A stretch of 35,132 nt of DNA from the NCBI GenBank assembly GCA_024640985.1, contig JAHEDY010000015.1, positions 1-35,132 of the forward strand, read 5' to 3'. A program made the translations under genes and the position numbers. The stretch comes from Gammaproteobacteria bacterium. Lineage in GTDB: Bacteria > Pseudomonadota > Gammaproteobacteria > Pseudomonadales > Litorivicinaceae. The stretch's first letter is position 1. The number at the start of each line of letters is the position of its first letter. This document shows positions 1,799 through 11,294 of this stretch, one piece after another. Below the pieces are notes generated by a model. That model ran no database searches and was not told the origin of the DNA. It was given only the letters and a program-made list of their open reading frames with translations.

Positions 1799-3991
1799 AT
1801 GAGTTCATCAGAGTTATCCGTAAAGCCTGTCGTCGCCAATCGCGATGAATGGCTGGCACTTGGGCAGCAAAGGACCCCAAAAACATGGCTTCAATGGGTT
1901 TTTGTCGCGTTTGCGGTTGTTTTTGCATTCTGGCATGTAGCCACCAATCTTCTCATTAATGAATCTGCTCTCTGGCAAAATGCGATTCATTTCGCGGGCT
2001 TTGCGGTCTTGGCCAGCGTCATTTTTCCTGCACGATTATTTGGGCGTCAGTCACTGGCTTTTGATCTGACATTTGGACTCCTGGTTGCTTGGGCTGCGTG
2101 CTGGGTGATCGCATCTGAGTCACGGATTTATGCTGACACGCTCGCAGTGACTGGCCAATCATGGCAATTTAATCTCTGGGATTGGTGTGCTGGTGGTCTT
2201 CTGATCGTTGCTGCGATTGATTTTTCCCGCCGGGTCTCAGGTTGGGTAATTCCAGCGCTGATCGTTTTCTCTGTTTGTTACATCTTGTTCCTTGGAGAAT
2301 CTCTACCCGGCGTATTTCGAACAGCCAGTCTTCCCCTCGACGATGTGTTGTTTCGAACGATCTACAACGACGAAGGGCTGTTTGGCATCCTCGCGACTAT
2401 TTCGTCATCCAACATCACTTTGTTCATGATTTTCGGCGGGTTTCTTGTCATCTCGGGCGCCAGTGATTTTGTCATTGAATTATCGAAAGTGGTTGCTGGG
2501 CGGGTGCGCGGCGGTGCGGCTTTTGTGGCGGTGTTGTCGTCCGCGCTCACAGGTACTATTAGCGGATCTGCGGTTGCTAACACAGCGTCAACTGGGGTGA
2601 TCACTATTCCCCTGATGAAATCCAGTGGATTCCGCGGACGGTTCGCAGCAGGTGTCGAGGCTGCGGCATCGACTGGTGGGCAGCTGATGCCCCCGATCAT
2701 GGGCGCTGGCGCTTTCGTGATGGCCAGTTATACATCCATTCCCTATTCAACCATCGTTGCCGTCTCGGTGATTCCTGCCTTGTTGTATTTCTTGTCAGTT
2801 GCTTTTGTTGTGCGAATTGAGGCGGTGAAGCATCGCGTTGGTGAAGGGATCGACATGACTGTGAGTCGAACCAAAATCATTGCGGGTGCTCTGACCTTTG
2901 TCATCCCTCTTTCAGTCATGATCTACTTTCTGATGTCTGGCGTGACACCGTCTTTCGCAGCGTCTGCGGCCATTGCAGTGTTGATCGTGGTGTCATGGAT
3001 TGCCTGGTTGATCGGTCAATGGACCGGCACTCAGGATTTGCAAACGAATGTGATGAACTTGAAGCGGATCATCGAAGCCTGTTTGTTGGGCATGCGAGGT
3101 GGAATTTTGACCGCGGTCTTAATGGTATCGATCGGTGTGATTAATAACGCCATCGTAACTAGTGGTATTGGGAATGGTTTCTCGCTCATGATTGCGCAGT
3201 GGTCTCAGGGTTCATTGGTCATTGCCATTCTCCTGATTGGCTTGGCGTCGCTCGTGTTGGGAATGGGATTGCCAGTCACCGCTGCCTACATCATTTTAGC
3301 TATTCTATGCGCGCCAGCTTTGGCGGGTATTCTGTCTGACACCATCATCATTGAGAAACTCATTAACGGGTTAACCGATCCCGCGCAGGCCGCGATGTTC
3401 ATGTTAGTTGATAGCCCGCATGCCGCCAAAGTCATGGTCGGTATGACCTTGGAGGAAGCCTCCAGTCTGATGTCGGCGATGCCCTTTGAAGTGGCGATGA
3501 CGGTGCGTCCGATGCTGATTGAGGCCGAAACCCTGATGGGCTTTTTGCTGGTCGCGCATTTGATTATTTTCTGGTTAAGTCAGGACAGTAACGTCACTCC
3601 ACCGGTGTGCCTTGCTGCCTTTACGGCGGCAGGGATTGCTAAATCACCACCGATGGCCACTGGATTTCAGGCTTGGAGGGCGGCCAAGGGTCTTTATGTG
3701 GTACCGCTTCTGTTTGCCTATACGCCGCTCATTAACGGAACCTTTCCGGAGATGTGCCAGATCGGCTTTTTTGCGTTGTTTGGGATCTATGCGACCAACG
3801 CAGTGATCGCACGATTTGCGGAGGGCCCCTTGGCTCTATGGCATTGGCCACTTCTGGTGATGGGTGGGGTGCTTTGTTATGTGCCTTTGGATCTGCTGCT
3901 GAATGGCGTAGGGGCCTTGTTGGTGACATTGGTGATTTGGTTGACCTATCGACAGAACCAATTCTTAACGGACGACACAGCATCCCGTTGA
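1799..3991 (+). CDS. TRAP transporter fused permease subunit (4TM/12TM, DctQ-DctM fusion)
   Basis: This is the inner-membrane component of the TAXI-TRAP system, importing substrate delivered by the upstream receptor with a sodium or proton gradient. The protein has 730 residues. A hydrophobic N-terminal part corresponds to the small DctQ-like subunit. The large DctM-like domain carries the diagnostic segments GTISGSAVANTASTGVITIPLMK and GGQLMPPIMGAGAFVMASY, and later VLGMGLPVTAAYIILA. Many membrane segments continue to the C-terminus, which ends in a short hydrophilic tail. The ATG follows the intergenic palindrome directly and no strong ribosome-binding site is visible, consistent with lower translation than the receptor. 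The size and domain order match fused TAXI-TRAP permeases. Confidence 0.93.
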   Translation: MSSSELSVKPVVANRDEWLALGQQRTPKTWLQWVFVAFAVVFAFWHVATNLLINESALWQNAIHFAGFAVLASVIFPARLFGRQSLAFDLTFGLLVAWAACWVIASESRIYADTLAVTGQSWQFNLWDWCAGGLLIVAAIDFSRRVSGWVIPALIVFSVCYILFLGESLPGVFRTASLPLDDVLFRTIYNDEGLFGILATISSSNITLFMIFGGFLVISGASDFVIELSKVVAGRVRGGAAFVAVLSSALTGTISGSAVANTASTGVITIPLMKSSGFRGRFAAGVEAAASTGGQLMPPIMGAGAFVMASYTSIPYSTIVAVSVIPALLYFLSVAFVVRIEAVKHRVGEGIDMTVSRTKIIAGALTFVIPLSVMIYFLMSGVTPSFAASAAIAVLIVVSWIAWLIGQWTGTQDLQTNVMNLKRIIEACLLGMRGGILTAVLMVSIGVINNAIVTSGIGNGFSLMIAQWSQGSLVIAILLIGLASLVLGMGLPVTAAYIILAILCAPALAGILSDTIIIEKLINGLTDPAQAAMFMLVDSPHAAKVMVGMTLEEASSLMSAMPFEVAMTVRPMLIEAETLMGFLLVAHLIIFWLSQDSNVTPPVCLAAFTAAGIAKSPPMATGFQAWRAAKGLYVVPLLFAYTPLINGTFPEMCQIGFFALFGIYATNAVIARFAEGPLALWHWPLLVMGGVLCYVPLDLLLNGVGALLVTLVIWLTYRQNQFLTDDTASR

Positions 3992-8402: not shown

Positions 8403-9011
8403 ATGCAACTTGACGTCTGGTTGGCTTACGTCCTGGCGATGATCGTGATCTCGGTTTCCCCAGGTTCAGGTTGCATTAACACCTTATCGACCAGCTTGAG
8501 TTATGGGTTTCGCCAGGCATTACCTGCGATTGCGGGCCTTCAGGTGGGTTTGGTTGTCCAGTTGATGGTAGTAGGGGTTGGTTTAGGCGCGATCCTCGCC
8601 AGCAGTGAATTGGCGTTTACGGTCTTACAATGGGCAGGCGTTGGTTATTTAGTGTGGATTGGTGGATCCAAGTTGATATGGCCGCAGGTGCAGTTTGCCC
8701 GTGACATCACGAGCGCACCAAAATCAGCCCTCTTCACTCGGGCGATTTTAATCAATGTGACTAACCCGAAGGCCTTCGTTTTCTTGGCTGCATTCTTTCC
8801 GCAATTTGTTGACCATAGCCAACCGTTGCTACCGCAATATTCGGCGTTGGCAGTGACGTCTGTGGCGATCGATACGGTGGTGATGTTGAATTACGCTTGG
8901 CTCGCTCACGCGCTGAGACCATTGCTTAATTCGGAAGCATTAATGAAGCGGCAGGAACAGTTTTTCGGATTGTTATTCGTGATCGCCGGAAGCCTGCTGG
9001 CGCTCTATTAA
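8403..9011 (+). CDS. LysE/RhtB family amino-acid exporter
   Basis: This is an inner-membrane translocator of the LysE/RhtB superfamily, which exports amino acids or derivatives such as homoserine, threonine and lysine. The N-terminal helix ends in the motif VSPGSGCINT, a form of the family PGPxxxxT element. SLSYGFRQALPAIAGLQVG follows, then hydrophobic segments consistent with five or six membrane helices in about 202 aa, the usual length. The ATG at 8403 is preferred over the adjacent TTG. The substrate is not predictable. It follows the zinc-ribbon gene by 3 bases and shares 4 bp (TTAA) with the convergent YbaK-domain gene. Confidence 0.9.
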   Translation: MQLDVWLAYVLAMIVISVSPGSGCINTLSTSLSYGFRQALPAIAGLQVGLVVQLMVVGVGLGAILASSELAFTVLQWAGVGYLVWIGGSKLIWPQVQFARDITSAPKSALFTRAILINVTNPKAFVFLAAFFPQFVDHSQPLLPQYSALAVTSVAIDTVVMLNYAWLAHALRPLLNSEALMKRQEQFFGLLFVIAGSLLALY

Positions 9012-9448
9012 GCCGCGAATTCACGACTCCAACGTTCAAAGTCGGTTAGCTTACTGAGTTCATCGGGCGTGATCGCCATCCAACCATGAAGAACTCCTGC
9101 AGGAACGTATAAACATGGGGAGTCGAGGCAGATTGGGTCAAGTGTCGTGTGTAGCAAATGTGGCAATCCAAATGGGGGCAACCACTGCGCATGGTAGCCG
9201 GTCAATAGGTAGGCCTGCATGGGATTTGCTCGGCGTTCGCTGGCGTCGAGTCTCGGTTGCTGGTTCCAAGGATGAATCGCGATCCGCGGGGCATGGTCTG
9301 CGCGCAAAAGCAGCGAGCAGGTTAAGATATCCTCCTCTCGGCAACCAAGCGACAGACTAAGTTGGCCTACCTCTGCTTCCAGTTCATAGATTTTGGCATT
9401 GCTGCCAAAACGCTCTAGAAATTCAAGAAGTCCGAGCGGTGGAGTCAT
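9008..9448 (-). CDS. YbaK/EbsC-domain protein (aminoacyl-tRNA deacylase-like), atypical
   Basis: The C-terminal half carries the YbaK fold signature: a region like LLLRADHAPRIAIHPW, then LLTGYHAQWLPPFGLPHLL and a PAG turn in LYVPAGVLHGW. Relatives hydrolyse mischarged aminoacyl-tRNAs such as Cys-tRNA(Pro). In typical members the core strand reads (V/A)KTLLL, with a conserved catalytic Lys. Here the aligned stretch is ILTCSLLL, with Cys or Thr in place of Lys, so activity may be changed or lost. The length is 146 aa from ATG 9446-9448; a GTG three codons earlier is possible. It is divergent from the LuxR-type gene. The family call is by pattern only. Confidence 0.65.
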   Translation of the reverse strand: MTPPLGLLEFLERFGSNAKIYELEAEVGQLSLSLGCREEDILTCSLLLRADHAPRIAIHPWNQQPRLDASERRANPMQAYLLTGYHAQWLPPFGLPHLLHTTLDPICLDSPCLYVPAGVLHGWMAITPDELSKLTDFERWSREFAA

Positions 9449-9518
9449 TGTTCTCACTTTCTTCCCCAGGCTCCCTTCCAGTTCCGAGGTATTAGGATAT
9501 CACACTCTGAATCATCGG

Positions 9519-9598
9519 TGGTGCGGTTGGTGCAGTTCCGCACCATTGCTCTTACCTATCACTGTGACACCGGTGTCACAGTGCGGCACCGGAGGTGC
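9519..9598. promoter_or_regulatory. Three consecutive hairpins upstream of the LuxR-type gene
   Basis: Three inverted repeats follow each other. The first is TGGTGCGG (9519-9526) pairing with CCGCACCA (9538-9545) across an 11-base loop. The second is a perfect 24-bp palindrome at 9560-9583, with half-site CACTGTGACACC. The third is GCACC (9586-9590) with GGTGC (9594-9598) around a GGA loop. The last stem buries GGAGG (9591-9595), the only strong ribosome-binding-like sequence before the regulator gene. GGTGC occurs three times and GCACC twice, so alternative pairings are possible. A regulatory leader, an operator for a dimeric protein, or both would fit. Confidence 0.5.
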
Positions 9599-9617
9599 GA
9601 AAAAATTATTGTAATTG

Positions 9618-10226
9618 GTGTCCGTGCGGATCAAGTCTTGGCCTGATCAGCTCAAATCCTCTTCAGGGATTCGGGTGATTCGACTCAGTGCTTTGCAAGA
9701 GGCTTCTGCTGTCGATATTTGTGTCTATCTGTTTGCGCGTATCAGACAAGGACTGAGTCAAGCAGTGACCGAGATCAGCGCGGCGAACCGGACGAAGTTC
9801 GTAGTGATTGATCAGGTCTGTGATCTCGATATTGCCATGTTATTGGTGAAGGCAGGCTGTCATGGCTATCTGAGCTGCGATGACAGAGGGTTCGATTTAA
9901 GGCGGATTACAAGTGTGCTGTTAGCCGGACGATATTGGGTTCCTAGGGCTGTACTTGAACGCATCGTTGAAGAGTTGACGGTTGACCGTGATGCGATCAC
10001 AGAATCGCTGTGTCAGCTTCTCTCTCCGCGCGAGCACGAAGTGGCGCTATGGATTTCCAGAGGACTCTCCAATAAACGGATTGCCAGAGAAATGGGAGTG
10101 ACTGAACGCACGATCAAAGCCCATCTCAGTCACATTTTTCAAAAAACTCCGGTGAGCGATCGACTAGAGCTCGCTTTGCTGATGAAGGGTGAATTGCCTG
10201 AGCGGATTCGCGTAAATCTCCAATAG
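9618..10226 (+). CDS. LuxR-type response-regulator-like transcription factor
   Basis: The C-terminal domain (about residues 135-192) is a clear LuxR-type helix-turn-helix: LSPREHEVALWISRGLSNKRIAREMGVTERTIKAHLSHIF. The N-terminal part resembles a receiver domain in its second half (VKAGCHGYLSCDD, then VLLAGRYWVPRAVLERIVEEL) but lacks the normal first strand and acidic cluster. A TAA at 9612-9614 forces the start to TTG 9615, GTG 9618 or GTG 9624, none with a close ribosome-binding site. In another frame just upstream, a receiver-like first strand (IIVIGVRADQVLA) lies at the right distance from GGAGG, so the annotated start may be wrong or the gene frameshifted. Targets unknown. The 3' end overlaps the acyltransferase gene by 63 bp. 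Confidence 0.8.
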   Translation: MSVRIKSWPDQLKSSSGIRVIRLSALQEASAVDICVYLFARIRQGLSQAVTEISAANRTKFVVIDQVCDLDIAMLLVKAGCHGYLSCDDRGFDLRRITSVLLAGRYWVPRAVLERIVEELTVDRDAITESLCQLLSPREHEVALWISRGLSNKRIAREMGVTERTIKAHLSHIFQKTPVSDRLELALLMKGELPERIRVNLQ

Positions 10227-11294
10227 TTTGTCGCGATATTTCTCGGGGGTTCCTGATATTAACGCCTGGAAGCGCTCTTGAACGTCGGGAAGAAGGTCGT
10301 CTGGAAGATGGTGCTTCTTCAGCAAGGCATCCGCTAAGCGTCCGGTATCAAAGACACGTTGCCCAAGGATGATTTGATGATCAATTAGTGTCGCTAATTC
10401 CTGAGGTGTCTCAGGGACATCGGTGATTGGTTTGCCAAAATGCAGATGCACGCGTCCTTTCCAGCCCATGATCCCGGCAGCTATCGACTGCACATCTTCG
10501 TCAGGGCGTTTGGTGTAATAACCATCCCGCTCAGTCATTGCCAGCTCCCGTGCTTTCATAGGAGCACATGGATCGAATTCGTAGGAGATGGACACCGGGA
10601 CGATTTGTGCTGCGCGAACGGCTTCCTCAAAGGATTCATTGCGCGGCTTGCCGGCCATCGCAATCATTTTTAAGATCGCCGGATCGGTACGATCAATTCC
10701 ATCCTTTGCACGACCCTCTCGATGCGCAATCCAGATTGAATGTCCATCTTCAATCGACTGGCGAATGTAGCCTGAGAGTGCTGAGTAGGTCTGCAACATT
10801 TCTCGCGGACCTGAGACATTGCGTTTTACGATAAAACTTTTGTTGAGACGCATCAGGTCCCCAACGAAGGGTTTTTTGACCAAGTTATCCCCAATCGCAA
10901 TGCGTACGGTGTGAAACCCACCGTTATAGAGCGCCCAATTGACGAATGCGGGATCCATCGCAATGTCGCGATGGTTACTTAAAAAAAGATAGGATTGCTC
11001 GGGATTCAGATGTTCAAGACCTGAGACAGTGAAGGTTTCAGTGGTTCGAGATAAGACTTTTGCCAGCTGTGGCTCCACCGCTGACTGGAAATCGTGAATG
11101 GTTTGAATGACCTGCGCTTTGGAGCGCAAAAATGAACGGATTCGTGGCCGTAAGATCAAGCTCAGCGGCATGAACCAGCCTTTAAATTTCAATTGCCCGA
11201 TGGCTTTGATGAACTCATCATCGTTGATGAGTCGATCGATGACTTGGGGGACGTCCTGGTCGCTGTATGGCTCAATATCAGAAATATCGGTCAT
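10164..11294 (-). CDS. Glycerophospholipid acyltransferase (PlsC superfamily, about 376 aa)
   Basis: The protein has the acyltransferase motif NHRDIAMDP (HxxxxD) near residue 120 and a second block in WIAHREGRAKDGIDRTDPAILK, which replaces the usual FPEGTRS. This belongs to a longer proteobacterial branch annotated as 1-acyl-sn-glycerol-3-phosphate acyltransferase. Such enzymes transfer acyl chains to glycerophosphate lipids at the inner membrane, but the exact acceptor of this branch is uncertain. The ATG follows AAGGA. The gene is divergent from ung with a 49-bp gap, and its last 63 bases lie opposite the LuxR-type coding sequence. A second, shorter PlsC-type gene occurs at 25.0-25.8 kb. 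Confidence 0.83.
   Translation of the reverse strand: MTDISDIEPYSDQDVPQVIDRLINDDEFIKAIGQLKFKGWFMPLSLILRPRIRSFLRSKAQVIQTIHDFQSAVEPQLAKVLSRTTETFTVSGLEHLNPEQSYLFLSNHRDIAMDPAFVNWALYNGGFHTVRIAIGDNLVKKPFVGDLMRLNKSFIVKRNVSGPREMLQTYSALSGYIRQSIEDGHSIWIAHREGRAKDGIDRTDPAILKMIAMAGKPRNESFEEAVRAAQIVPVSISYEFDPCAPMKARELAMTERDGYYTKRPDEDVQSIAAGIMGWKGRVHLHFGKPITDVPETPQELATLIDHQIILGQRVFDTGRLADALLKKHHLPDDLLPDVQERFQALISGTPEKYRDKLLEIYANPLRQFTLHQQSEL

Follow-up and report, generated by a model that had tools for sequence, protein, structure and literature searches.

A conserved operator candidate beside a lineage-private perfect palindrome at a probably decaying LuxR-type regulator locus of a Litorivicinaceae genome

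The DNA analysed here (the window) is a stretch of 35,132 nucleotides, a contig of the 1.63 Mb, 98.85% complete genome G000, and its sequence is the assembly consensus. It was compared within a genus set of 22 genomes, G000 included, in which G002 is the single close sister (the sister). The region between 9457 and 9615 is bounded by the start of a minus-strand gene and by a plus-strand ORF with a LuxR-type helix-turn-helix (HTH) domain, so that the GerE/LuxR-type gene downstream and the divergent gene upstream are where the first-pass annotation had placed them. The divergent gene (9008..9457, minus strand, 149 aa) is an ORF with a YbaK/ProX-like aminoacyl-tRNA editing domain, a weak assignment (Pfam PF04073, E 4e-4, under the curated cut-off). 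It begins with GTG in the window and with ATG in the sister, and it was detected in 15 of the 22 genomes, the window's included. On the plus strand, the ORF, Pfam and alignment evidence together delimit a NarL/FixJ-like regulator ORF with a GerE HTH (9615..10226), whose amino end is shortened and whose frame there is unlike that of the relatives. This gene overlaps a convergent acyltransferase gene tail to tail over 63 bp (10164..10226), and the relatives that carry the regulator gene show the same arrangement, with overlaps of 60-72 bp. The closest named match to the regulator is in a Litoricola sp. MAG (L032), and the next is in the cultured marine strain LSUCC0096 (L033), a member of OM252, which is a clade of marine Gammaproteobacteria (PMC8269220); the term 'LuxR' is absent from the main text of that paper. 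In a tree of the two neighbouring proteins (9008-9457 and 10167-11294), the branch of the window is about five times as long as that of the sister (0.055 vs 0.010), and the window's lineage is perhaps fast-evolving.

The first-pass annotation had described the intergenic region as an array of three hairpins sharing the words GGTGC and GCACC. As a reading of the letters this was accurate: the perfect 24-bp palindrome CACTGTGACACCGGTGTCACAGTG lies at 9560..9583, GGTGC begins at 9520, 9529 and 9594, GCACC begins at 9540 and 9586, and the only plus-strand GGAGG within 9400-9700 begins at 9591. The density of both words and palindrome exceeds chance in the window. Five such words within 82 nt occurred in none of 60 dinucleotide shuffles of the window (the maximum was four, reached in one of the 60), and palindromes with arms of at least 12 averaged 0.017 per shuffle, that is, one occurrence in 60 shuffles. 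The window also holds a second and longer perfect palindrome, of 26 bp (1759-1784), which is identical in the sister and is not present, within 3 mismatches, in the other 20 of the 22 genomes. It lies between two genes that look like those of a TAXI-type TRAP binding protein (739-1749) and of a TRAP permease (1799-3991), and it is perhaps an intercistronic mRNA hairpin.

The view that the three hairpins form one device did not survive the comparison with relatives, which split the array: the first stem is kept, the palindrome is private to the window and the sister has a broken third stem. Stem 1, GGTGC-N4-GGTGC-N6-GCACC (9520..9544), was followed by the conservation of its dyad at the regulator loci and by motif searches in the 22 genomes. 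A GGTGC-N5/6-GCACC dyad is present at eight of the 14 loci scanned (G000, G002, G013, G001, G009, G021, G010 and G003) and missing at six (G005, G012, G017, G011, G020 and G007); the genome of a fifteenth locus, G015, contains no exact GGTGCN6GCACC anywhere. All eight loci with the dyad carry the regulator gene or, in G021, a pseudogene, and the dyad is found at eight of the 10 loci that have the gene or a pseudogene. In G020 and G007 the regulator at the locus is more distant (38% identity to the sister's), and there is no such dyad. The absence of the operator candidate where the regulator gene is gone is in part plain co-deletion.

Exact copies of the full 25-nt motif are present in five of the 22 genomes, always at the regulator locus, and allowing one mismatch adds two sites away from it. 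The shorter GGTGCN6GCACC has six sites in G000, the five others being inside open coding frames; over the 22 genomes it gave 43 exact matches vs 25 for the reversed control, with seven of the 43 at the regulator locus, which gives no clear hint of a wider regulon. When three mismatches were allowed, the loose dyad pattern matched all 22 genomes and was uninformative. In an alignment of the eight dyad loci the half-sites are the longest invariant blocks (5/5 columns each), an invariance of ten bases that is partly by choice since these loci were picked for showing the dyad. The next longest invariant block there is a run of three in the −10-like element of the divergent gene. Conservation in the same alignment was 58% for the spacer, 62.5% for the palindrome region and 87.5% for the third half-site, at 9520. 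Five of the six pairs of stem 1 never vary and none has changed on both sides, which favours a DNA site for a protein over an RNA stem. Judged by this pattern, stem 1 looks like a DNA operator in which a pair of inverted half-sites is joined by an additional half-site, GGTGC, in direct orientation. The proposal of a dimeric operator between the divergent genes therefore stands for stem 1; for the central dyad, to which it had been attached, it does not, this dyad being private.

We then considered the position of stem 1 relative to promoter-like elements. Upstream of the divergent gene, an extended −10-like element (TGNTANNNT on the minus strand, 9494..9502) is a putative promoter element; at least one such match is present in the first 110 nt upstream of this gene at 14 of 14 loci, even those without the operator candidate. 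The distance from the dyad centre to this element is variable, from 34 to 56 nt. On the regulator side, a hexamer with three or four of six matches to TATAAT lies exactly 32 nt downstream of the dyad at eight of eight loci. It reads CATACT in G002, G013, G001 and G009, and CATATG, CAGAAT or AACAAT in the other three relatives; in the window its place (9577..9582, plus strand) is occupied by CACAGT, with three TATAAT matches instead of four, in the right arm of the palindrome. The 32-nt offset was the best of 55 (a mean of 3.86/6 TATAAT matches over the seven relatives, the next best being 3.14), and A2 and T6 of the hexamer are kept in six of the seven. Given this fixed spacing, as against the variable distance to the element of the divergent gene, the dyad seems to be tied to the regulator promoter, and if the hexamer is a −10 the dyad would be centred near −52. 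The hexamer precedes the ribosome-binding site, which was chosen by eye, by 6-8 nt in six of the seven genomes scored (21 in G010), so that the leader would be very short. No clear −35 was seen for the regulator gene. A sigma-70 scan of 9300-9800 reported neither of the two proposed promoter elements, and its single match was on the minus strand at 9634-9605 (9/12 matches); a terminator scan of the same interval gave two terminator-like sites, both of them lacking a good T run.

The candidate operator is probably bound by the adjacent regulator. The sister's protein was modelled (pLDDT 77.1, pTM 0.58, 9 sequences) as a receiver-like domain followed by an HTH. Its best solved Foldseek matches are full-length NarL/FixJ-type regulators, with VraR, LiaR, FixJ, VpsT and NarL among the best. 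VraR came first (E 4.3e-8, TM 0.48), and its rmsd of 12.2 against the sister's model makes the superposition over the whole length a loose one; a better fit is given by DesR when its receiver domain is taken by itself (TM 0.71 by target, rmsd 3.7). Pfam Response_reg gave no match in the regulator up to E 1, and the receiver domain is thus degenerate. The protein therefore resembles NarL/FixJ response regulators in its domain order, the receiver-like alpha/beta domain of the sister's model being followed by a GerE-type HTH, and differs from them in its degenerate receiver and in the looseness of the full-length superpositions. Operators of LuxR/NarL/FixJ-family regulators are lux-box-like inverted repeats. 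Stem 1 is similar to them in its inverted half-sites, 16 bp end to end, its location upstream of the regulator's own gene and its fixed distance to a −10-like hexamer; it differs in the half-site itself, here GGTGC, in the extra direct copy 9 nt upstream, and in that its binder is a candidate. On these grounds the regulator would bind stem 1 and control its own promoter, and perhaps that of the divergent gene as well. It could be argued that another protein binds the operator and that the LuxR-type regulator is merely a target, since the pairing of regulator and site is one that we infer and the promoters of regulators are often controlled by other proteins. We consider this unlikely: among the 22 genomes the exact motif is confined to the regulator locus, as would be expected of a local regulator acting on its own gene more than of a global one, and the motif is missing where the regulator gene is missing, although, as noted, partly through co-deletion.

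A different function had been proposed for the array, namely that its three stems are transcribed and that alternative pairing exposes or hides the GGAGG, the third stem being the one that hides it. This third stem, GCACC-GGA-GGTGC (9586..9598, plus strand), has lost one base of its left arm in the sister, and in the window it is absent from the predicted minimum-energy fold. The GGAGG (9591..9595, plus strand), which in the sister and G013 is closely followed by the ATG and would be the ribosome-binding site of the ancestral start, was computed to be 66% unpaired in a long transcript and 33% unpaired in a short one beginning just before it, the latter value speaking for a switch. In the window it lies 19 nt before the first in-frame ORF start (9615), so that it is no normal ribosome-binding site for this ORF, and the start codon that a switch should control is missing here. 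The window does fold more stably than shuffled sequences, both from stem 1 to the start (z −2.86, 0/200 shuffles as stable) and in a separate test of the region (z −2.05, 4/200), and stability is likewise seen in G003 (z −2.50) and G010 (z −1.94), with G001 at −1.32. However, the sister (−0.45), G013 (0.04) and G009 (−0.18) do not stand out, and no common array fold was found among the seven sequences folded. Rfam gave no match in the window at gathering scores, and a two-sequence RNAalifold run showed no pair changed on both sides. In a MAFFT alignment, covariation over the whole three-stem region tops nearly all shuffles (1/500 as high). This signal, which goes against the reading we favour, comes mostly from the central region, which exceeds shuffles in pairing as well as in covariation. 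Only 58% of the cells there are paired, with some two-sided changes, and because of this and of the poor alignment we did not rely on it. An RNA switch should show conserved stems with compensatory changes: stem 1 is invariant, without any such change, and neither the palindrome nor the third stem is kept in the relatives. Altogether, a switch of the ribosome-binding site is extremely unlikely.

The central palindrome (9560..9583) was found in one of the 22 genomes, being absent from the 21 others with up to 3 mismatches. A lack of dyad conservation in relatives, which the first-pass annotation had itself given as part of what would refute it, is thus what was observed for the central dyad (0 of 21), and the search of the window's own genome that it had suggested gave no second copy within 3 mismatches. 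The sister has CCTTGTGACACCGGAGTCATACTG at this place, in which eight of the 12 pairs are formed; five substitutions separate it from the window, and all five complete pairs, bringing the number from eight to 12. The chance that five random substitutions in the sister's 24-mer give a perfect palindrome is 6.2e-6, a figure that does not allow for the choice of place. The CATACT shared by four relatives indicates that the right arm, which covers the −10-like hexamer, is the derived one in the window.

These five symmetry-raising changes might mean that the palindrome is an operator newly selected, for the regulator or for another dimeric protein, for example of the CRP type, and one Crp-type HTH family match does exist in the genome. 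We nevertheless regard this as quite improbable, given that there is neither a second copy in the genome nor a counterpart in the 21 relatives. Moreover, the HTH of the regulator is identical at the protein level in the sister, where the palindrome is lacking, and nothing in the HTH thus calls for a new binding site. A CRP site was considered and rejected: the CRP consensus is TGTGA-N6-TCACA and the palindrome is TGTGA-N8-TCACA, a spacer of 8 vs 6.

The palindrome is most simply understood as young and lineage-private, a quasipalindrome that would have been perfected by a template switch during replication. Perfection of quasipalindromes by template switching is described in E. coli (PMC7202029), and template switching has been inferred for RNA genes (PMC8794818). 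The present case resembles the mutations described in these two papers in that the changes are clustered and all raise the complementarity of the arms of an imperfect repeat that a relative still carries. It differs in being drawn from a single sister genome and in the outer pairs, which go beyond one event. Indeed, with the sister as ancestor, the inner nine pairs fit a copying of the left arm and are the most that a single switch accounts for, whereas the outer pairs 2-23 and 3-22, to which three of the five changes belong, do not fit and would need more than one switch. A bolder version of the template-switch origin, in which the event made a new perfect operator in one step, replacing the −10 and rewiring or silencing the regulator gene in one lineage, seems to us very unlikely. 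A literature search for work joining quasipalindrome, promoter and operator returned nothing related, as judged by title and abstract.

Concerning the regulator gene, all seven aligned relatives begin it with an ATG that has no counterpart in the window, where the corresponding place (9605..9607, plus strand) reads neither ATG, GTG nor TTG. Soon after the start, a 5-nt deletion shifts the reading frame of the window, and the ORF begins at the TTG at 9615. The rest of the gene is well preserved. Relative to the sister, dN/dS is 0.074 over 195 codons, the last 20 of which overlap the acyltransferase gene, and all 12 changes in codons 131-192 are synonymous; by this comparison the gene body is under purifying selection. 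The carboxyl end of the regulator may owe its strong conservation to this overlap. Because of the selection on the gene body, a product may still arise from the TTG at 9615 or from a GTG at 9618 or 9624, the choice lying between recent damage and the use of a poor start. In its strongest form this would mean that the gene is functionally intact, the TTG or a GTG just after it serving as start and the changed amino end being tolerated, as the low dN/dS and the unchanged HTH would allow. We see this as a genuine possibility, if below even odds. By eye, no GGAGG-like ribosome-binding site lies near those codons, the receiver-like domain has out-of-frame residues in place of its first strand (residues 2-8 of the sister's model), and the −10-like hexamer has lost a match. 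The lost start codon and the 5-nt deletion would rather suggest that inactivation of the regulator gene is probably under way in this genome.

Such an inactivation would not be isolated in the genus. G021 has many stops (a pseudogene), about the last 30 codons are left in G015, and in G005, G017, G011 and G012 the regulator is absent or a scrap; of the 14 relatives in which the neighbouring gene was found, six thus have the regulator gene broken or missing. The stub of G015 was probably kept because its retained tail includes the 63-bp overlap with the acyltransferase gene. On the tree of the two neighbouring proteins (15 rows, 6/12 inner branches poorly supported), the pattern of regulator loss needs three changes, two of which are forced by well-supported branches.

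Taken together, these data are best explained by a conserved operator lying beside a private palindrome in a probably decaying regulator locus, a joint reading to which we give a probability of roughly 0.6. The three hairpins would then be three unrelated things side by side rather than one array: the operator candidate tied to the regulator, the quasipalindrome perfected by template switching over the regulator's −10-like hexamer, and the third stem, which the sister lacks, ahead of a gene that would be following several relatives into inactivation. The locus offers a caution, as the eye-catching perfect palindrome misleads, being private, while conservation lies in the inconspicuous GGTGC dyad. 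Across the genus it forms a compact series of regulator loss, from an intact gene through a lost start and internal stops to a stub kept at the overlap, and it may show, in nature, a quasipalindrome perfected over a promoter. The one-step origin of a new operator, if it were true, would provide a natural mutational mechanism that makes a ready symmetric binding site.
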